DNA of 64,000 nucleotides from Chitinophaga oryzae (lineage in GTDB: Bacteria; Bacteroidota; Bacteroidia; Chitinophagales; Chitinophagaceae), in NCBI RefSeq assembly GCF_012516375.2, contig NZ_CP051204.2:1426001-1490000 (forward strand), in the 5' to 3' direction. Shown here piece by piece: positions 56,592 to 64,000 of this stretch. The translations under genes and the position numbers were made by a program. Numbering within the stretch: position 1 is the stretch's first letter; the number at the start of each line of letters is the position of its first letter. The notes beneath the pieces were generated by a model that saw nothing but the letters and a program-made list of their open reading frames with translations, had not been told where the DNA came from and did no database searches.

Positions 56592-56738
56592 GATAACAAT
56601 GACGGGGCAAAAAGCGTAACAGGTATATTGTGTCTTATCCATTAGACGATTCCGGATTGCTCCGGAAGCAGGACTCGAACCTGCAATCCCAATCCCCTGC
56701 GGAAGTAACCCGTTACTACGGCACCCGTCATTATTATC
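56592..56738 (-). ncRNA. Class I Y-RNA-like RNA with permuted tRNA mimic (copy a)
   Basis: On the minus strand this 147-nt element is closed by a 15-bp helix (56724-56738 with 56592-56606; one G-U, otherwise perfect). Next come the conserved motif UGCCGUAGUAACGGG and an inner helix UAACGGG/CCUGUUA (56709-56715 with 56617-56623). Inside is a tRNA-like module in permuted order: T arm GCAGG-TTCGAGT-CCTGC (56668-56684), an acceptor-like hairpin TTCCGGA-GCAA-TCCGGAA capped by a GNRA loop (56650-56667), then D arm GTCT-AATGGATA-AGAC (56632-56647). This is the topology of bacterial YrlA-type Y RNAs. It lies downstream of a Ro60 homolog gene on the same strand. Ends are inferred from the helix. Confidence 0.8.
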
Positions 56739-56739
56739 A

Positions 56740-56805
56740 CAAGGTAACAAACTAAATGGGAGGTGGTTTCATTGACAGTGAAGTATCCCATTCATACGAC
56801 ACTTG
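56740..56805 (-). ncRNA. Class II mini Y-RNA-like hairpin (copy b)
   Basis: A 66-nt element on the minus strand. CAAG/CUUG (56802-56805 with 56740-56743) closes it. It is followed by the conserved UGUCGUAUG strand, the inner helix AAUGGGA/UCCCAUU (56786-56792 with 56755-56761) and a loop beginning UACUUCACU. It has the Ro-motif side of the class I RNA without the tRNA module. Base pairs differ from copy d but pairing is kept. Confidence 0.65.
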
Positions 56806-56827
56806 CTTTTCTTAAATTAGTTTATAG

Positions 56828-57009
56828 ATAACAACAGCAGGGCAAAAGAGCGCAACAGGATGGCTGTGGGCCTGCCCCCGGATTTCTCCGCTGCAGACTG
56901 CCTGCGTCCTGCCATTAGACGATCGCGGAGATCACCGCGAGCAGGAGTCGAACCTGCATATCAAGCCTGAATCGAAGTAGCCCGTTACTACGGCACCTGC
57001 TATTGTTAT
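56828..57009 (-). ncRNA. Class I Y-RNA-like RNA with permuted tRNA mimic (copy c)
   Basis: A 182-nt element on the minus strand closed by a 14-bp helix (56996-57009 with 56828-56841; one G-U). The conserved motif UGCCGUAGUAACGGG is identical to copy a, and the inner helix is UAACGGG/CCUGUUG (56981-56987 with 56853-56859). The tRNA-like module is T arm GCAGG-TTCGACT-CCTGC (56941-56957), acceptor-like hairpin TCGCGG/CCGCGA (56923-56940, different sequence from copy a but the same pairing), and D arm GTCT-AATGGCA-GGAC (56906-56920). An extra segment includes CGGA-GAAA-TCCG (56879-56890). The differing but paired stems support a real structure. Confidence 0.8.
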
Positions 57010-57077
57010 ATCAGGGTAAAGAGCCGAATAGGAATTTTCGTTTGGAGTGAAGTAGCCCATTCATACGACACCTGACA
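57009..57077 (-). ncRNA. Class II mini Y-RNA-like hairpin (copy d)
   Basis: A 69-nt element on the minus strand. UGUCAGG/CCUGAUA (57071-57077 with 57009-57015) forms the outer helix. UGUCGUAUG follows, then the inner helix GAAUGGG/CCUAUUC (57056-57062 with 57026-57032) and a loop beginning CUACUUCACU. Its 3' end meets the 5' end of copy c. The CAGG/CCUG pair here replaces CAAG/CUUG in copy b, a compensatory change. Confidence 0.65.
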
Positions 57078-57089
57078 GATGTTGTTGTT

Positions 57090-57280
57090 GCCCGGACAGG
57101 GATCGAACCTGCATTTTCATTGCTGAACAGTATGGCTGTAAATACGCTTCCCTACTGGCATTTAAGCGTTCGGTGCACTGTAAATTCTGATCATGGCAGG
57201 GCGTGCCCGTCACGATATGTTCCATACACTCCGCGGTGACGTAATTTTACCGCAGCTTTGTCCTTTTAAGCTACCGGGCC
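57090..57280 (-). ncRNA. Un-permuted tRNA-like element with a long insert
   Basis: On the minus strand the 5' part reads GGCCCGG-TA, then a good D arm GCTT-AAAAGGACA-AAGC (57255-57271). About 140 nt later come a T arm GCAGG-TTCGATC-CCTGT (57096-57112) and CCGGGC (57090-57095), which pairs with GCCCGG of the 5' end. So acceptor, D arm, insert, T arm and acceptor are in normal tRNA order, but the anticodon arm is replaced by a long insert with hairpins (CGTCAC/GTGACG, ACGCTT/AAGCGT, ACAG/CTGT). No CCA follows (the tail is AACAACAACA). It lies between the Ro60 gene and the Y-RNA-like copies. A competing hairpin CTACCGG/CCGGTAG (57271-57285) lowers certainty. Confidence 0.5.
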
Positions 57281-57286
57281 GGTAGT

Positions 57287-57311
57287 GCAGCGCGCCCTTT
57301 CAGCGCGCTGC
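57287..57311. repeat. GC hairpin between Ro60 gene and RNA array
   Basis: GCAGCGCGC (57287-57295) and GCGCGCTGC (57303-57311) form a 9-bp stem with a 7-base loop, 29 bases after the Ro60 stop. There is no T tract on the minus strand, so it could be a processing or partial termination site. Confidence 0.6.
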
Positions 57312-57339
57312 GTTTTATGTAGTTAACAAAAACGGATGA

Positions 57340-58860
57340 TTAAAGGGTTATACTATGGATGTGTTCCAGTGCAGTCTGACCATTTTCGATGGCTTCCATT
57401 ACATCAAACACTTTATCGCTCCAGCCGCTGATAAGGTGTACATCATTTTGACGTACATCCACCGGTGTTGTACCCTGGCCTTGCAGGTCAAAGAGGTACA
57501 GTTTGGCGTTGGGCGCCACCTGCTGTTTGTAGGTGGCCCAGCTGCCGGCAAATGTATTTTGTTTGCCGGTGCTGTCCCATAGCTGGCAGTCGGTGAAGAG
57601 CATGATCTTATCAGCCACGTGGCCGCGTTCGATCAGGTCTTTTATTACAAGGTAGCCGTTGGTGGAGTAGCCGACTTCTCCCGCTCTCCGGTGGAACGCG
57701 TCGACATTGGAGAGGATGCTGTTACCCGGCAGCGCTACGGTTTTCCAGGTGTCCCCGAACATACCGCTGATAACATGCCTGCATTTATGCTGCAGTAACA
57801 TGCCGAGCATCAGGCCGACGTCGTAACCGGTGACTTTGCTGCGGGGAGACAGCGGGAACTGCATGGATCCGGACACATCGCAGGCGATGACCACGCGGGT
57901 GTTGACATCGAATCCTTTCAGGTGTGTTACGCTGGTTTTGACAGCGGTTTCCAGCGCCTGCATCAGTTGACCGGTAAGGCCGTGCTGCACATCTTTCAGT
58001 TCGCGGTATGCGGCGAGGTAGCGGAAAGGCAACTGTTTGGAATTCCATACCGCTGTCTCGTTGGCCAGGTAATCGCATACCAGGCCGATATGCGCCGGGC
58101 TGATATCCGCCTGCAGCATATTGCGCAGGTTCCGCATGGTAGCCATATATCCCAGTTGTTTGCTGGTGATCAGTTCTTCCCAGGCTTCGCGCATGGCCGC
58201 TCTTTTATCAGTTTCACAGGCAAAGGAACGCTGACCAACGGCCGACAGGGTGGTTTCCCAGGTATAGGGCACGGAAAGCGTGCCGGTGACTATTTTGTTG
58301 AACACTTCCTGCTGGGCATTGTCTTTGGCTTTCGGGTGTACCAGGAACAATGCGTCTTTCAGCGAGATGGCTGTTTTGCGGTTGTATTTCGCAAACTGGT
58401 ATTCATCGAAGTGGTTGAAGGCTTCCGCCAGCCCTTTCTGAACCTGTTTGCTCAGCTTATTCAGCTTTTTTACCTGTGTACGTTTGTTGGCCATGGTATA
58501 ATAGGCCAGTATTTCCGTGATTTCATCCGCACGTTGTACCACACGCGCCACTGTTTTACCTACCAGCGCATGGCCGCTGAAGCGTTTGGCCATTTCCACG
58601 GCCAATACCATCGGGATGCTGCGCAGGTACATTTTTTCGCGGGCATACACGGCCAGCCTGGCTATAAAGGCCGGATCGTTTTTGTCCATCAGTGCGCAGA
58701 TACGAGCCAGTCTGTCACCGGCTCCTTCATAGAACTGGTCATTCAGAGAAGCTGTCACCACGCTGGTGTACAGTTCCATTTCCGGAGTTGTCTTATACGC
58801 CGGTGCGCCTGCATGATTGGTTACCTTTTGGGTGCCTTTGGTGAAAAGATTGAATTTCAT
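57340..58860 (-). CDS. Ro60/Rsr-like RNA-binding protein (TROVE plus vWA)
   Basis: A 506-residue homolog of the Ro 60-kDa autoantigen. Residues about 1-310 are the TROVE helical-repeat ring (ARICALMDKNDPAFIARLAVYAREKMYLRSIPMVLAVEMAKRF in part, RDA-like KDALFLVHPKAKD). Residues about 318-500 are a von Willebrand A domain with the metal site DVSGS (Asp328, Ser330, Ser332) and later LFTDCQLWDS. In animals and in Deinococcus and Salmonella, Ro binds Y RNAs on the outside of the ring and misfolded RNA ends in its pore, and helps RNA decay under stress. The non-coding array downstream and the divergent WYL regulator fit such a stress RNP. No rtcBA or PNPase gene is adjacent. Confidence 0.93.
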   Translation of the reverse strand: MKFNLFTKGTQKVTNHAGAPAYKTTPEMELYTSVVTASLNDQFYEGAGDRLARICALMDKNDPAFIARLAVYAREKMYLRSIPMVLAVEMAKRFSGHALVGKTVARVVQRADEITEILAYYTMANKRTQVKKLNKLSKQVQKGLAEAFNHFDEYQFAKYNRKTAISLKDALFLVHPKAKDNAQQEVFNKIVTGTLSVPYTWETTLSAVGQRSFACETDKRAAMREAWEELITSKQLGYMATMRNLRNMLQADISPAHIGLVCDYLANETAVWNSKQLPFRYLAAYRELKDVQHGLTGQLMQALETAVKTSVTHLKGFDVNTRVVIACDVSGSMQFPLSPRSKVTGYDVGLMLGMLLQHKCRHVISGMFGDTWKTVALPGNSILSNVDAFHRRAGEVGYSTNGYLVIKDLIERGHVADKIMLFTDCQLWDSTGKQNTFAGSWATYKQQVAPNAKLYLFDLQGQGTTPVDVRQNDVHLISGWSDKVFDVMEAIENGQTALEHIHSITL

Positions 58861-58891
58861 ATCGTTTTGTATTATTGTGTGATTGACGATA

Positions 58892-58929
58892 CAAAGATGT
58901 CCCCCTATGTGCGCAGTCTTTTTGCGCAG
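58892..58929. promoter_or_regulatory. Divergent Ro60 / WYL promoter with TGCGCA repeats
   Basis: The minus strand has CATCTTTG (58892-58899), close to TAnnTTTG, about 32 bases before the Ro60 start. TGCGCAG occurs twice (58910-58916 and 58923-58929, 13 bases apart) where the -33 element should be. No standard -33 box is seen. The repeats are candidate sites for the WYL regulator. Confidence 0.5.
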
Positions 58930-58967
58930 GTCAATTTTTTATTTATTTTTATTAAAATTTTTTTTGG

Positions 58968-59987
58968 ATGCCTGTTAACCGTAACGCATTAATAAGATAT
59001 AAAACTATTGACGCCTGCCTCCGAAACCGCCGCCGGCGCTGGACTTTAGCGAACCTGATCGACAAAGTGTCTGAAGCGCTGTATGACTATGAAGGCATGG
59101 AAAAGGGCATCAGCCGCCGTACCATACAGGCGGACATACAGATGATGCGCAGCGATAAGCTGGGCTATAATGCGCCTATTATTATAGTAGAGAAAAAGTA
59201 TTATACCTACGAAGACCCCGGCTATAGCATTACCAATATCCCGCTGAGCGAGCATGACCTGACCCGCATGACGGAAGCCGTGGAGGTACTGAAGCAGTTC
59301 AGGGGCTTTTCCCATTTCCAGCACCTGAACGACGTGGTGCAGAAACTGGAAGGCCATGTGTATGCTTCGTCACATAACCAGCGGACGGTGGTCGACTTCG
59401 AAAAAAATGAACACCTGCGGGGATTGTCGTATCTCGGCATGATCTATGATGCCATTGTCCGGGAACAGACCCTGTTGGTAAAATACCAGTCCTTCCGCGC
59501 TAAATCCGCCAGTGAAATGCACCTGCACGCCTGGTGGCTGAAAGAGTTTAAGAACCGCTGGTTTGTGGTAGGAACGAAAAATGCCACCGCCGGTATCATT
59601 ACCCTGGCGCTGGACAGGATCGAGGAGTTGAAAATCGATGAAACCGAAACTTACCGCCCTAACCTGGACGGGCATACGCCGGAAGACTACTATCAACATG
59701 CCATCGGGCCTACCGTTGCCAGGGTAAGACCGCAACGGGTGACGATCCTGGTGACGCCGGAACATGCTCCCTATGTGCTGACCAAGCCGCTGCATCATAG
59801 TCAGCAGGTGGTCTCCGAAGGAACAGAAGGGACCGTCGTTACCATAATGGTGGAACATAATTTCGAGCTGGAGCGGGAAATCCTCGGTTTTGCGGACGGT
59901 ATGAAGGTGCTGGGGCCGGAGAAGCTGCGCAGGGCTATCCAATGGAAGCTACGACGTGCGGCAGATATATATGATACAGAAAATTAA
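58968..59987 (+). CDS. WYL-domain transcriptional regulator
   Basis: A 339-residue regulator. An N-terminal winged helix (about residues 8-70: RWTLANLIDKVSEALYDYEG, ISRRTIQADIQMMRSDKLGYNAPI) is followed by a WYL domain (about 150-235) with LHAWWLKEFKNRWFVVGTK, in which the family's WYL reads WWL, and a C-terminal WCX-like part. WYL proteins bind nucleic acids or nucleotides and switch stress or defence genes. It is transcribed away from the Ro60 gene with 107 bases between the starts, so it is the likely regulator of the RNP. This differs from the sigma-54 regulator RtcR that accompanies Salmonella rsr. Confidence 0.9.
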   Translation: MPVNRNALIRYKTIDACLRNRRRRWTLANLIDKVSEALYDYEGMEKGISRRTIQADIQMMRSDKLGYNAPIIIVEKKYYTYEDPGYSITNIPLSEHDLTRMTEAVEVLKQFRGFSHFQHLNDVVQKLEGHVYASSHNQRTVVDFEKNEHLRGLSYLGMIYDAIVREQTLLVKYQSFRAKSASEMHLHAWWLKEFKNRWFVVGTKNATAGIITLALDRIEELKIDETETYRPNLDGHTPEDYYQHAIGPTVARVRPQRVTILVTPEHAPYVLTKPLHHSQQVVSEGTEGTVVTIMVEHNFELEREILGFADGMKVLGPEKLRRAIQWKLRRAADIYDTEN

Positions 59988-59990
59988 AAA

Positions 59991-60030
59991 AACGACAGCC
60001 GGCTTTACAAGATAAGCCGGCTGTCGTTTT
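59991..60030. terminator. Bidirectional terminator WYL / GH16
   Basis: AACGACAGCCGGCTT (59991-60005) and AAGCCGGCTGTCGTT (60014-60028) are a perfect 15-bp stem with A's before and T's after. Confidence 0.9.
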
Positions 60031-60049
60031 TTAGAGAAATACCTGTCTG

Positions 60050-61090
60050 TTAGTGCTTATACACTCTTACATAGTCTACTTCCATGGTCCCTTTGGTGAA
60101 GGCCGGGTCGATAGCGCCGCCAAAAGTTCCGCCGATAGCGAAATTGAGCAGGATAAAGTAATCATGGTTGAAAGGCAGGCCGGCTGCATTGTTAAACGTA
60201 AAATAGAGTTTATCATCCACATACCAGCGGAGCTGCGCAGGCGACCAGTCCAATGTATACTTATGGAACGCGCCGGCCAGATTGGCAGCCATGGTGGTGC
60301 CGCCGTCGGCGTTACCGCCGGCATGGCCCGGATGATGCACGGTGCCGTATATTTTCTGCGGTTCGTTGCCTTTATGTTCCATAATGTCTATCTCGCCGCA
60401 GGCGGGCCATCCCGCGGTGGCGATATTGCTGCCCAGCATCCAGATGGCCGGCCAGGTGCCGCCGCCTGCGGGCAGTTTGGCGCTGACTTCCACGCGGCCA
60501 TAGGTGAAATTAAACTTGCCTTTGGTGAGCAGGCGGGCAGACGTATAGTCTCTCCCGTTATAGCTTTCCTTTACCGCATTGATTTTCAGCGTGCCGTTGG
60601 AAATGGCGGCGTTCTGAGTGCGATCGGTGTAGTACTGGGCTTCGTTGTTGCCCCAGCCGTTATCGCCGGTGCCGATGTCATAGCCCCAGTTTTTCGGGTC
60701 CGGCGCGCCGTCCTGGTTAAACTCGTCGGACCAGAGCAGCTTCGTGGACACCGGGACAGCTACAGACAATGATTGACCGACGGTAAGGCCATCGGCGCTT
60801 TTAGCGGTGACTTTCACCGTGTAGTTATTCACTCCCGGTGTGTTATATGTATAACTCGTACTGCCGTTGGCGGTAGTTCTGATATACCCGTTGCCGAAGT
60901 CATAGTCATAACTGACGGCGTTTTCGGCGGCTGCCGTAAAGGTCACGGTGCCGCTGCTGTCGGTGCTCACGACAGTGTTGACGACCAGGTTCAGCGGCGC
61001 TTTTTTTTCCGCCGGTGGGTTGTCATTTGATTTTCCGCAGCTGCTCAGGGAAACGAGCAGCCCCATCATCATTCCGGTTAAATGCTTCAT
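60050..61090 (-). CDS. GH16 beta-glucanase lipoprotein with PKD domain
   Basis: A 346-residue exported enzyme. The signal ends in a lipobox (LVSLSSC, Cys near residue 18). Residues about 35-110 are a PKD-type beta-sandwich (FTAAAENAVSYDYDFGNG). The rest is a GH16 jelly roll with the catalytic motif GEIDIMEHKG (Glu233, Asp235, Glu238). The profile is that of laminarinase or other beta-1,3-glucanase. It follows two lipoproteins and a SusD gene, so it is the enzyme of a beta-glucan utilization locus. It is the last gene before a strong terminator. Confidence 0.92.
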   Translation of the reverse strand: MKHLTGMMMGLLVSLSSCGKSNDNPPAEKKAPLNLVVNTVVSTDSSGTVTFTAAAENAVSYDYDFGNGYIRTTANGSTSYTYNTPGVNNYTVKVTAKSADGLTVGQSLSVAVPVSTKLLWSDEFNQDGAPDPKNWGYDIGTGDNGWGNNEAQYYTDRTQNAAISNGTLKINAVKESYNGRDYTSARLLTKGKFNFTYGRVEVSAKLPAGGGTWPAIWMLGSNIATAGWPACGEIDIMEHKGNEPQKIYGTVHHPGHAGGNADGGTTMAANLAGAFHKYTLDWSPAQLRWYVDDKLYFTFNNAAGLPFNHDYFILLNFAIGGTFGGAIDPAFTKGTMEVDYVRVYKH

Positions 61091-61093
61091 AAG

Positions 61094-61975
61094 TTATTGA
61101 ATTGCGATTAGTTTAACATACCATGCACCCGGCTCCTGCACACAACGTAACGTCATATGCGTGTCGGTCCTTTCCAGTACCTGGAACTTATGTGTTCCCA
61201 GGTAGATGCCAAGATGGCCTTTTACGGGGAAGGTGATAAATTCTTCAGTGGCGCTGCCGTCGTATCCGAATGTTTCCGTATAGTCGGCGGCTTTAGCACC
61301 GGTAAGGGTATAGTCTCCTGTGCCTGTCATGGCTGGATCGAAGTCTTTTAGGTATTCCTTTTTGCCGAAGAGGTCATTGTTGGTGGTGTGGGTGAACACA
61401 TTGCCGTTTGCATTGAAGGTGTAGATGTCATCGTAGATGCCGAGGCCGGCTTTTTCATCAGGAGCGGCAGCCCACCATGCCGGCGTGAATACATCGGCGG
61501 CAGATACGCCGAGATGACCGGGAGCATCTTTGTCTACCCGCCATTTCTTGACGCCGTTGTTGGTCAACATGCTGACCAGCTCAGGGGCGGGCGTGAACGC
61601 GCGGTATATCTCCACTTCCATGGTATTGGTACTGGTAATGCCGGCTTTGCCGGAGGCATACACGGTGATGGTGAACTTCTTTACACCGGTATGTTTATAA
61701 GTGTACGTATAGGCGCTGACGGTACCTGTTTTGGGCGCCTGGCCGTCGCCGAAATCCACTTTGTAGTTATAGGCGTGCTCTGAACTGATGTTCAGCTGTA
61801 TGGTGCCGGAGCCGTCGCCGTTTGGATGGGCTGCGTCTTTCCCGTTAACCGTAAGTGTGAGTACTGGTTTGCCCGGTGTGGTGAGATCACCGAACTTGTA
61901 GTCGTCTTTGCCGCAGCTGCCGGCCAGCAACAGCACGGCGCCGAAAAGGAATGTCAGTGTTATATGTTTGATCAT
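61094..61975 (-). CDS. PKD-domain surface lipoprotein of the GH16 locus
   Basis: A 293-residue lipoprotein: signal and lipobox LLAGSC (Cys near residue 20). One PKD domain (YNYKVDFGDGQAPKTGTVSAYTYTYKHTGVKKFTITV split around short strands) is followed by a C-terminal part with conserved aromatic residues (KKWRVDKDAPGHLGV, KEYLKDF) typical of surface glycan-binding proteins of SusE/SusF function. It starts 13 bases after the previous gene and ends 3 bases before the GH16 gene. Confidence 0.75.
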   Translation of the reverse strand: MIKHITLTFLFGAVLLLAGSCGKDDYKFGDLTTPGKPVLTLTVNGKDAAHPNGDGSGTIQLNISSEHAYNYKVDFGDGQAPKTGTVSAYTYTYKHTGVKKFTITVYASGKAGITSTNTMEVEIYRAFTPAPELVSMLTNNGVKKWRVDKDAPGHLGVSAADVFTPAWWAAAPDEKAGLGIYDDIYTFNANGNVFTHTTNNDLFGKKEYLKDFDPAMTGTGDYTLTGAKAADYTETFGYDGSATEEFITFPVKGHLGIYLGTHKFQVLERTDTHMTLRCVQEPGAWYVKLIAIQ

Positions 61976-61988
61976 AAGTGATGCGTCA

Positions 61989-63077
61989 TTAGTTGGTTAA
62001 TACGATGTCATCGAACAGGATGGTGTAGTTTTGGCTGCCATCGCCTTGTGTGCCGTTGTCCAGGAAGAAGAGGATGTTCTGTAATTTTTTGTTGTTATCC
62101 GTGATTTTACCGCTGAAGTCGAACGTCAGTTCTTCCCAGGTATTGGCTTTGGTGGTAACGGCTTCCATGTTTTCCATAAAAGTATTGTCACCGCTTCTTT
62201 CCAGTTGCAACAGTATGCGTAGCCCTGGCCGCCAGGAGTATACTTTCACCCTGAACTTTTTGTTACCGGTAAAATCTATCGGGCTGCTCATGCTGATGAA
62301 ATTGCCTGCCCAGGTCTGGTCTTTCGTTTTGATGATTTTACCAACGGTGGCGCTGCTGTTGATACCGCCGGGATAGGGATTGGGTATTACTGTGGTGAGG
62401 CTGCCGCCAAAATCGCCCCAGGCGTAGCTGACATCCGGTTGTTCAAATGTCATCGGCAGGGTGAGCGCGTTGTAGATGGTCACTTCTTTGGTGGCGGTGG
62501 TGATGGCTGCGCCGCCGCTGAGCGCTTCCACTTTTACCTGGTATTTGCCGGCTTTGGCGTAGGTGTGTGTAACATGGGCACCTTCAGCGATCAACACCGG
62601 TACTTCATTGGCCGCATCGCCGAAGTACACTTTATATCCTCCGGTCGCGTACAACGCCGCAGCCGACAGGGTAAGATCGTGCAGGTTGGCGTTGGCCGTG
62701 ATGGTCAGGCTTTCAGGTGCCCGGAATGTTACAGCGAGTTGTTTGGTGGTTTCTGCTTTCTGGCCGGTGATGCCGCTGGCGATTACTTTCACCGGATAGG
62801 TACCTTCCTTGTAGATATGGGTGGTGCTCTGCCCGGGAAGTACGCGCACAGGTTCGGTGGTGGCGTCCCCGAAATAAATATCGTAAGCGGTAGCGCCGGC
62901 GCTGTTGGGCGTGATGGTCACAAGCCCGGAGTTATCGTCCGTGATGTTGAAATGGACGGCTTCGCCGGTGGGTGCTGTTCCTGTGTTGAGGAAGTCCGTA
63001 TCGTCGAAGTTGTCTTTAGTGCAGCCGCTGCCAATGGTGAAGAGCAGCAGCAGCGGTATATAGGTAAGTTTGTTCAT
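61989..63077 (-). CDS. PKD-like and carbohydrate-binding surface lipoprotein
   Basis: A 362-residue lipoprotein (lipobox TIGSGC, Cys near residue 19) with two PKD-like repeats (FGDATTEPVRVLPGQSTTHIYKEG; FGDAANEVPVLIAEGAHVTHTYAKAG) and a C-terminal beta-sandwich (KKFRVKVYSWRPGLRILLQLE, WEELTFDFSGK, ILFDDI) like a carbohydrate-binding module. It follows the SusD gene by 18 bases and probably binds the glucan at the cell surface. Confidence 0.75.
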   Translation of the reverse strand: MNKLTYIPLLLLFTIGSGCTKDNFDDTDFLNTGTAPTGEAVHFNITDDNSGLVTITPNSAGATAYDIYFGDATTEPVRVLPGQSTTHIYKEGTYPVKVIASGITGQKAETTKQLAVTFRAPESLTITANANLHDLTLSAAALYATGGYKVYFGDAANEVPVLIAEGAHVTHTYAKAGKYQVKVEALSGGAAITTATKEVTIYNALTLPMTFEQPDVSYAWGDFGGSLTTVIPNPYPGGINSSATVGKIIKTKDQTWAGNFISMSSPIDFTGNKKFRVKVYSWRPGLRILLQLERSGDNTFMENMEAVTTKANTWEELTFDFSGKITDNNKKLQNILFFLDNGTQGDGSQNYTILFDDIVLTN

Positions 63078-63095
63078 GCGGTTGAAGTTTAACTG

Positions 63096-64000
63096 TTAAT
63101 AACCCGGATTTTGTTGCAGCTGGGAGATCTCAATTTCCCGTTGCGGAATAGGAAACAGTTCGTTTTTGCCTGCTTTGAAACCGGTGATGACAGTGGCGGC
63201 GCGGCCGGTGCGCACAAGGTCAAAGAAACGGTCGCCTTCCATGGCCAGCTCCAGCCGGCGTTCGTCCCAGATGGCCTGCCGCAGGGCTGTTCCGGAGGCG
63301 TTGACATCATGCAGGTTATCGCGGAAAGCCCGGCGCCGTACCCTGTTGAGGTAATCGCGGGCCCTGGCGTCGTTGGGCGTAGACGCACGGTTGTTGGCCT
63401 CTGCTGCCAGCAACAGTACTTCTGCAAAACGGATAGTGCGATAGTTGTTGAGATAATTGAGTTCTGTCTGGCCGGAAGTTTCTCCTTTGCGTGGCAGGTA
63501 TTTCTGGTTATACAGACCGGTGTTCTTATAAGGCGCTGCCTGGTAGGTGATGGTGAACTCGGGGTGCGCCGTCTTATAGGCTTCAATATCCAATACGGTG
63601 GCAGCTTTCCGCTGATCGCCGGCGGCATAGGCTTTGGCCAGCTCCTGGGTGGGCAGGTTGGTGCTCCATCCCGGTGCATAAGGGCTGCTACCGGTAAGAC
63701 CACGGATACCGCACTGTTGTACCGCGTAATTGCCTTGTCCGCGCGTGGCGGCGCCCCAGTTCCAATAGGGGAACAGGTTGGAATACTGGATCTCGAATAC
63801 GGATTCAGCGCCGTTTTCGCCGGACTGTAAAAAGATGTCGGCGAAATCAGGCATCAGCGTAAAAGGTCCATTTACCACATTCTCCAGTGTAGCAACGGCT
63901 GCGTCGAATTTATTCTGGTAGATCAGCACTTTTCCCAGCAGCGCCTGGGCGGCGTATTTGGTCACGCGGCCCGCCTGCGGATTGGAGTTAGGCAGTACAG
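63096..64000 (-). CDS. SusD/RagB-family lipoprotein, N-terminus outside the window
   Basis: The reading frame is open to the window edge, so only the C-terminal 301 residues are present; the start lies beyond 64000. TKYAAQALLGKVLIYQNKFDAAVATLENVVNGPF is the TPR-like part split over two helices, and FAEVLLLAAEANNRAST with WDERRLELAMEGDRFFDLVRTG and NELFPIPQREIEIS are typical SusD C-terminal motifs. A GTG at 63963-63965 is not the start because conserved sequence continues upstream of it. It belongs to the GH16 locus; the SusC gene should follow to the right. Confidence 0.92.
   Translation of the reverse strand, partial: VLPNSNPQAGRVTKYAAQALLGKVLIYQNKFDAAVATLENVVNGPFTLMPDFADIFLQSGENGAESVFEIQYSNLFPYWNWGAATRGQGNYAVQQCGIRGLTGSSPYAPGWSTNLPTQELAKAYAAGDQRKAATVLDIEAYKTAHPEFTITYQAAPYKNTGLYNQKYLPRKGETSGQTELNYLNNYRTIRFAEVLLLAAEANNRASTPNDARARDYLNRVRRRAFRDNLHDVNASGTALRQAIWDERRLELAMEGDRFFDLVRTGRAATVITGFKAGKNELFPIPQREIEISQLQQNPGY

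Follow-up and report, generated by a model that had tools for sequence, protein, structure and literature searches.

The Ro locus of Chitinophaga oryzae lies in a 64,000-nucleotide stretch of contig NZ_CP051204.2 (positions 1,426,001 to 1,490,000; here the window). It comprises the gene for a Ro60-type protein, a divergent gene for a WYL regulator and, on the same strand as Ro, five structured RNAs, which follow in the Ro reading direction in the order class C, B1, A1, B2 and A2 (Table 1). A1, A2, B1 and B2 are predicted Y RNAs. Judged by sequence comparison, class C is a conserved RNA family with the body of a tRNA, separate from the Y RNAs; it is a new structured RNA, with its own covariance model, common to bacteria and viral contigs. 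Ro, the four predicted Y RNAs and class C probably form the core of a WYL-controlled RNA-damage regulon, the members of which would most likely be Ro-Y ribonucleoproteins (RNPs), RtcB, spare tRNAs and class C as a new tRNA mimic.

Structure of the class C RNA

The window copy of class C is 194 nt long, with a 7-bp acceptor stem (last pair G.A in the window), a D arm of the form GUAGCUUAAAAGGA(A)AAGC and a T arm that reads GGUUCGAAUCC in most members. Where an anticodon arm would be expected there is a hairpin whose loop is rich in A, and some 100 nt separate this hairpin from the T arm. The insert contains a stem (GUAUGG/CCAUAC), a long hairpin and a near-invariant core, GAAUUURCAG-GCACCGAA...AGUAGGGAAGCGYAUUU.

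The evidence for this structure is comparative, because the single-sequence fold of the window copy is no better than those of shuffles (z -0.36). When nine diverse sequences are aligned without reference to structure (alignment A3, from which locus L035, with a deletion, and L019, with an insertion, were excluded), 97.2% of 422 pair cells hold standard pairs and 32 of the 47 pairs show changes on both sides. None of 500 shuffles reaches any of five measures in this test, and slid versions of the structure pair 34.6-41.5%. With 33 members (32 distinct; alignment A4, L019 included) 97.3% of the cells are paired, 38 of the 47 pairs have compensatory changes on both sides and slid versions reach at most 42.4%; the rows of A4 were aligned to the structure with the model, a procedure that favors it. 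An earlier note on this DNA, made by a model from the letters, had proposed structured elements here, and for class C, as for the class A Y RNAs below, they are now seen to exceed chance. The class C covariance model (R1) scores 18 of 97 sources at 120 bits or more and the next at 34 or less, many of the lower ones being tRNAs. No credible family for class C was found in Rfam 15, searched with three members at a low threshold and with the members of L019, L049, L059 and L136 at the gathering score.

A reading of class C as an unusual tRNA, or one with an intron, that would decode a codon once the insert had been excised is very improbable. ARAGORN in intron mode does call a tRNA-Val(tac) in the close relatives L003-L006 and in L020, but the called anticodon varies among relatives (Val, Leu, Ser, Thr, Arg), and the anticodon position is occupied by a self-paired hairpin with covarying bases. 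ARAGORN in normal mode calls no tRNA or tmRNA gene in the window, class C included, where Rfam likewise gives nothing at gathering score, and the L016 copy matches the Rfam tRNA model in part, at 13.4 bits. The intron-bearing candidate was rejected on the inconsistent anticodons and on the covariation of helix 3. Also rejected was a pseudoknot between the P5 loop and GCGYA, which contains A-C and other mismatches, GCGYA pairing better with UAC..GC.

Class C also lacks the Ro-type stem: in the C. oryzae genome the class A covariance model (R2) finds A1, A2 and B1, not class C. The fifth, tRNA-like element that the earlier note had placed in a multi-RNA Ro RNP is thus real and conserved; it is not a Y RNA, and belongs to a separate family that occurs also without Ro and in viral contigs.

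Distribution of class C

R1 also matches ordinary tRNAs at about 25-35 bits, and 127 of 198 relatives' genomes have some match at E 0.001; class C was therefore counted only at 80 bits or more. It is present at this level in 19 of the 198 genomes, the next best match listed scoring 34.7 bits, and is rare across the phylum (4 of 395 genomes at E 1e-10 or better, C. oryzae included in that count). Ro itself is present in only 17 of 195 family genomes. Class C adjoins Ro in 14 of the 19 genomes having it, again with C. oryzae included. Ro occurs in 14 of the 18 class C genomes other than C. oryzae; class C lies within about 1.4 kb of it in 13 and on a different contig in the remaining one (G243). 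Class C is present without a Ro match in the other four of the 18 (G196, G207, G229 and G289).

Among 36 stretches from two motif scans of viral contigs, three (L100, L101 and L102) carry class C at 73-81 bits. The copy in L101 lies between tRNA-Phe and tRNA-Cys within a run of nine tRNAs, that in L102 beside tRNA-Gln among 24 tRNAs, and the piece of L100 has six scattered tRNAs; no Ro match was found on the fetched pieces of the three. A blastn search of plasmids with one class C member returned no match, nor did one of named phages, again with a single member. As to sampling, L084-L099 are short pieces (3.2-4.6 kb) in which class C may be missed, the L086 copy being cut off by the piece end, and several places are held in duplicate (L106/L136, L119/L135, L109/L133, L115/L134, L108/L137 and L120/L139).

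The nearness to Ro could mean that class C is a third Ro cargo, a subunit of the same RNP as the Y RNAs and not a separate decoy, as its adjoining Ro in most genomes that have it and its first place in the array of L003-L006 and the window suggest. We consider this unlikely, given the missing Ro-stem motif, the Ro-less genomes and the viral contigs. Less likely still, class C could be a hitch-hiker that originated in the tRNA arrays of phages, was inserted at Ro loci and contributes nothing to the Ro response. The viral copies with tRNA genes, two of them within clear tRNA arrays, the orphan copies near unrelated genes and a decayed copy beside an intact Ro would all be consistent with it; the strong conservation of both pairs and unpaired core bases over 33 members, the enrichment beside Ro and the presence of a shared repeat directly before class C in two Ro-less genomes (see below) argue against it.

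Two side observations concern the surroundings of class C. The orphan copies of G229 and G207 (L133 and L134) adjoin, at the same place in both, genes that by eye resemble a rhamnose-use operon. Small S24-peptidase-like open reading frames (ORFs) lie near class C in L137 (5150-5473; Chitinophaga, tested with Pfam) and in the viral contig L100 (3531-3857), hinting at a phage remnant.

The Ro protein and its Y RNAs

The Ro60 ORF matches Pfam TROVE at 107.6 bits (cut-off 23) and vWA_Ro60 at 31.2 bits (cut-off 27.7), and its protein matches the PDB entries 9l5y, a TROVE domain protein (E 1.8e-27), and 1yvp, Ro60 (E 5.9e-5). The NCBIfam Rsr equivalog model scores it at 30.6 bits against a threshold of 900; the protein is therefore regarded as divergent and the name Rsr equivalog is avoided. 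Among the named genomes returned, the closest Ro is that of Chitinophaga eiseniae DSM 22224 (92% identity). The C. oryzae protein is matched by 93 phage records, and the consulted part of PMC7824862 already reports TROVE proteins in jumbo phages.

The TROVE-vWA gene and the gene-free stretch with four motif-sharing elements were correctly recognized in the earlier note, whose span for the array (56592-57280) fits the elements as now delimited, and the two alternating Y RNA classes appear as it described them. A1 and A2 combine a conserved Ro-type stem with a permuted tRNA-like domain beside Ro, as expected of the YrlA type. Searched at a low threshold, A2 matches Rfam YrlA (RF02553) over 56601-56712 (41.2 bits, E 6.7e-7); the gathering score of 69 is not reached, so that the covariance-model search suggested earlier yields a YrlA-like RNA by structure, not one to be filed under RF02553. 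The class A consensus fold, from 42 sequences of 79 candidate places in Bacteroidota Ro loci, has 27 pairs, of which 24 show compensatory changes on both sides. It consists of an outer stem, a Ro-type stem with GGUGYCGU...UACUUC, a T arm and an acceptor hairpin; a D arm is visible in the sequence itself and in the match to YrlA and is absent from the consensus fold. Class B keeps the Ro-type stem without the tRNA-like domain, and 8 of its 17 pairs have changes on both sides (nine copies, from five of nine Chitinophaga loci looked at).

In the whole 8.36-Mb genome the three top matches to R2 are A2 (127.7 bits), A1 (80.4) and B1 (47.5). B2 is missed by this search; it is kept in L003-L005, with covarying stems. 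The comparison of the locus over relatives that the earlier note had called for thus finds the stems conserved and covarying. One additional class A RNA follows class C in L004, L005 and L006, and L006 lacks the last pair. Elsewhere in the C. oryzae genome (G000:C1:386887-386953, L220) there is a partial R2 match of 36.6 bits without the Ro stem.

Ro loci were compared in the best 80 of 142 confirmed loci of relatives, which with the window make 81; the counts describe this clade, because all 80 are relatives of the C. oryzae Ro. Y RNA matches to R2 of at least 40 bits occur in 80 of the 81 loci and at least two in 74 (median 3, maximum 6; about eight partial matches without the Ro stem are excluded). 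Y RNA arrays are therefore normal in this clade, and the impression that the number of RNAs was unlike described systems is not supported. Some weak ARAGORN tRNAs overlap Y RNA matches (e.g., L032, L034, L059 and L072). Upstream of Ro and before an SPFH gene, Chryseobacterium loci carry one or two cores of a permuted tRNA (T arm, acceptor hairpin, D arm) that have no Ro stem (Table 1); these may represent either permuted tRNA genes or remnants of Y RNAs.

A WYL regulator with a predicted operator

The divergent WYL gene noted earlier is confirmed by Pfam, and its link to Ro is strengthened by a predicted operator that the two share. The gap between them holds the inverted repeat TGCGCA-N7-TGCGCA, which is upstream of both genes at a distance of 49 nt from Ro and 39 nt from WYL. 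In its degenerate form (TRYGCA-N7-YGCRYA) the repeat lies within 170 nt upstream of 24 of 26 WYL genes, where shuffles lead one to expect 0.003; over the 80 loci, which are not independent, 100 sites are found versus 1.0 in shuffles. It also stands 36-51 nt before RtcB in L012, L060, L066, L071 and L136 (252 nt in L061), and 27-40 nt in front of class C in the Ro-less genomes G196 (27-28 nt) and G289.

A neighboring WYL gene is not general: a divergent member of the family lies within the stretch fetched in 24 of the 81 Ro loci. The repeat precedes Ro in 33 of the 57 loci without one, a lower bound because six of the 57 have Ro elsewhere in the piece. These sites, with no WYL gene in the stretch fetched, would suit another, unlinked regulator to which WYL is a mere neighbor. 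This seems improbable to us, since the site stays with the WYL gene beside different neighbors and WYL orthologs in Ro-less genomes keep it at their own promoter. In all eight genomes searched the WYL ortholog has the repeat upstream, and the gene divergent from it is Ro in G000 (C. oryzae), G256 and G216, an SPFH gene in G229 and G207, and a gene here called RING742 in G196, where two sites lie between WYL and RING742. That WYL and the site are constant while the neighbors vary fits a local autoregulated repressor or activator, and from its position the repeat is likely bound by WYL. No PDB entry matches the WYL protein by sequence at E 0.001.

Two copies of the exact 19-mer are present in the C. 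oryzae genome, at Ro/WYL and between the genes for an HPP membrane protein and RING742. The latter is a 742-aa protein that scores 160.9 bits against the MXAN_6230/SCO0854 RING family (NCBIfam NF041916; cut-off 600), by sequence a distant relative only. Across 79 Chitinophaga genomes, 17 have 26 exact sites, of which 10 adjoin Ro (two of them distant) and eight adjoin RING742. The degenerate pattern has six matches in the C. oryzae genome (reversed control, 0), about two being expected by letter count, so the argument within this genome rests on the identical 19-mer.

Two further sites were noticed. A degenerate repeat at G000:C1:49653-49671 (L187), about 190 nt before a gene that is recA-like by eye, may be due to chance. 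The exact 19-mer precedes a similar small ORF of 211 codons, lipoprotein-like by eye, in L199, L200 and L201 (G237, G269 and G208).

RtcB, SPFH proteins and tRNA genes at Ro loci

By sequence search, RtcB is present in 26 of the 81 Ro loci and an SPFH protein in 14 (Pfam on examples). C. oryzae has RtcB in three places, none in the Ro locus, and has no RtcA in its genome, in agreement with the lack of rtcBA nearby that had been remarked on. Some relatives have RtcB next to the Ro locus with the repeat in front. Arrays of at least five tRNA genes (up to 17, with many specificities) contain or flank 11 of the 80 relatives' Ro loci. A total of 114 tRNAs are matched by Rfam in these eleven loci and L136, without exception on the plus strand, which is that of Ro. 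Whole genomes hold only 38-67 tRNAs in total (four genomes tested), so this clustering is far from background. L136, from the Ro-less G289, is a single island in which five tRNAs and class C are grouped with SPFH, RtcB, a WYL gene of this same family and the repeat.

A proposed RNA-damage regulon

In the WYL-controlled regulon that we favor, which transfers the logic of the Salmonella and Deinococcus systems described below to a WYL sensor, WYL would likely act as a repressor, a dimer of it occupying the repeat between Ro and its own gene. A damage signal (a nucleic-acid fragment, or damaged RNA or DNA ends) would be bound by the WYL domain and cause WYL to be released, after which Ro and the array would be transcribed together. 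Ro would bind the Y RNAs through the shared stem. The tRNA-like domain of YrlA attracts tRNA-acting enzymes, and the permuted domain of class A would attract such enzymes or an exoribonuclease, in the way that a Deinococcus Y RNA engages PNPase. Ro-Y RNPs would handle damaged RNA, to be resealed by RtcB acting in trans in C. oryzae and from next door in some relatives. Class C, together with the spare tRNAs present in some relatives, would buffer tRNA loss, and RtcB and the spare tRNAs would restore translation. Having kept acceptor, D and T arms with no normal anticodon loop, class C would be a tRNA mimic in the same response, most likely serving as a decoy for enzymes that cut tRNA or as a sensor of them.

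Several points weigh against this scheme or parts of it. WYL binding is deduced from the position of the repeat, that WYL represses rather than activates is a guess, and the single transcript is an assumption. No WYL gene lies in the stretch fetched for 57 of the 81 Ro loci, and the repeat is absent at two of the 26 WYL loci (L016 and L028, where WYL does not adjoin Ro). Eight of the 26 exact Chitinophaga sites adjoin neither Ro nor RING742. The repeat lies within 300 nt before class C in six of 40 entries, which represent four distinct places, one of them (L049) being the WYL/Ro site itself; it is missing over that distance in front of the three viral copies and in G229 and G207, where class C stands alone beside unrelated genes. 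In G257 (L121) class C has lost its 5' arms although the adjoining Ro is intact, which makes it dispensable there. The decoy or sensor role is drawn from shape and company only.

The presence of class C in both bacteria and viral contigs points to a conflict over tRNA. A bolder reading, to which we give somewhat less than an even chance, is that class C represents a new type of non-coding RNA in which a complete tRNA body bears a conserved effector domain of about 100 nt. In bacteria it would serve an RNA-damage regulon under WYL control, together with Ro-Y RNPs, RtcB, SPFH and RING proteins and spare tRNAs; phages would carry it among their arrayed tRNA genes as a weapon to counter defenses that cut tRNA. 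The purpose of bacterial Ro-Y RNPs becomes a testable question once there is a defined operator to start from, here a candidate, and a compact set of genes that it may control (Ro, Y RNAs, RtcB, SPFH, the RING-family protein, tRNAs and class C), the next question being what WYL senses and which RNAs are cut or repaired.

Features of the locus and its surroundings

Table 1. Features of the C. oryzae Ro locus (window positions) and of relatives' Ro loci (positions within the numbered locus)
Feature	Position	Strand	Basis
Ro60-type protein, 506 aa (TROVE + vWA)	57340..58860	-	Pfam
WYL + WCX regulator, 339 aa, divergent from Ro	58968..59987	+	Pfam
Predicted WYL operator TGCGCAGTCTTTTTGCGCA, inverted repeat with 7-bp spacer	58910..58928		
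Perfect 9-bp inverted repeat between class C and Ro stop	57287..57311	-	
Class C RNA, complete tRNA-like body with ~100-nt conserved structured insert	57087..57280	-	
Y RNA B1, short class, Ro-type stem, no tRNA-like domain	57008..57079	-	
Y RNA A1, YrlA-like, permuted tRNA-like domain, extra ~38-nt segment	56828..57009	-	
Y RNA B2, short class, ends approximate	56736..56810	-	
Y RNA A2, YrlA-like, permuted tRNA-like domain	56592..56738	-	
Permuted tRNA cores, Chryseobacterium	L044 2400-2550; L043 2006-2135; L025 1770-1913; also L018, L024, L035, L045, L055		
Ro with tRNA arrays	L014 2515-9038; L063; L058; L059; L019; L079; L047; L049; L046; L039; L072		

The 9-bp inverted repeat is identical in L003-L005 and changed in L006. 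A promoter scan of the window was uninformative (3 sites vs 4.5 in shuffles). Beyond the WYL gene, a 19-bp hairpin with A/T flanks (59987-60032), likely a terminator, lies between the convergent WYL and GH16 genes; Rfam mir-192 matches at 59976-60050 were rejected as a microRNA and reflect this terminator-like hairpin. The minus strand from 60050 to 63965 encodes a GH16+PKD protein (Pfam), then more secreted proteins and a SusD-like one (by eye), and is probably a polysaccharide-use operon.

Comparison with known systems

In the open-licence PMC literature, as far as it was covered, we recognized no description of class C, of such a Ro operator or of tRNA arrays at Ro loci, most subscription papers being outside that scope. 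Burroughs and Aravind, in 2016, reportedly described RNA-repair operons with RtcB, TROVE and partners, which is the protein company of these loci; that work is not known to have included an operator, class C or tRNA arrays.

In the Salmonella rsr-yrlBA-rtcBA system, as given in the consulted part of Hughes et al. (2020; PMC7790460), an RNA-repair operon is regulated by damaged tRNA through RtcR; the same source describes a Deinococcus Y RNA that tethers Ro to PNPase. The C. oryzae locus resembles the Salmonella operon in a Ro60 ortholog with adjoining Y RNAs, YrlA having a tRNA-like domain (PMC7790460). It differs from the operon so described in that regulation is predicted to depend on a divergent WYL protein and that protein's own repeat instead of RtcR, and in its RNAs, which are class C and four Y RNAs; RtcA is missing from the genome, and RtcB is encoded outside the locus. 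With neither RtcB nor RtcA in its Ro operon, it is not an Rtc (RtcR-RtcBA) operon.

The WYL regulator of a defense island, of the BrxR family, binds inverted repeats and is a proposed nucleic-acid sensor in the sections consulted of Picton et al. (2022; PMC9122601). The likeness lies in the WYL regulator, in the inverted repeat at the presumed target promoter and in the nucleic-acid ligand proposed for BrxR. Compared with BrxR as described there, the C. oryzae protein, which has no PDB match at the threshold given above, stands among RNA-repair genes and has a different repeat.

A1 and A2 share with YrlA (RF02553) the Ro-type stem and the T arm, acceptor hairpin and D arm in permuted order; they differ in that the best window member reaches 41 bits versus the gathering score of 69 and in that the C. 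oryzae copies are arrayed. A locus of this kind, with a Ro and at least two Y RNAs, has a precedent in Salmonella. Chen et al., in 2014, are said to have treated bacterial Ro with more than one Y RNA, and YrlA-type Y RNAs.

For class C the nearest comparison is with GOLLD and ROOL, of which ROOL, too, is large. Both are structured RNAs of unknown function often found near phage tRNA islands, and GOLLD, often more than 800 nt long, may carry tRNAs in a linker, according to the part of PMC12286853 consulted. Class C is like them, as described there, only in living among phage tRNAs; it is about 195 nt long and is itself tRNA-shaped.

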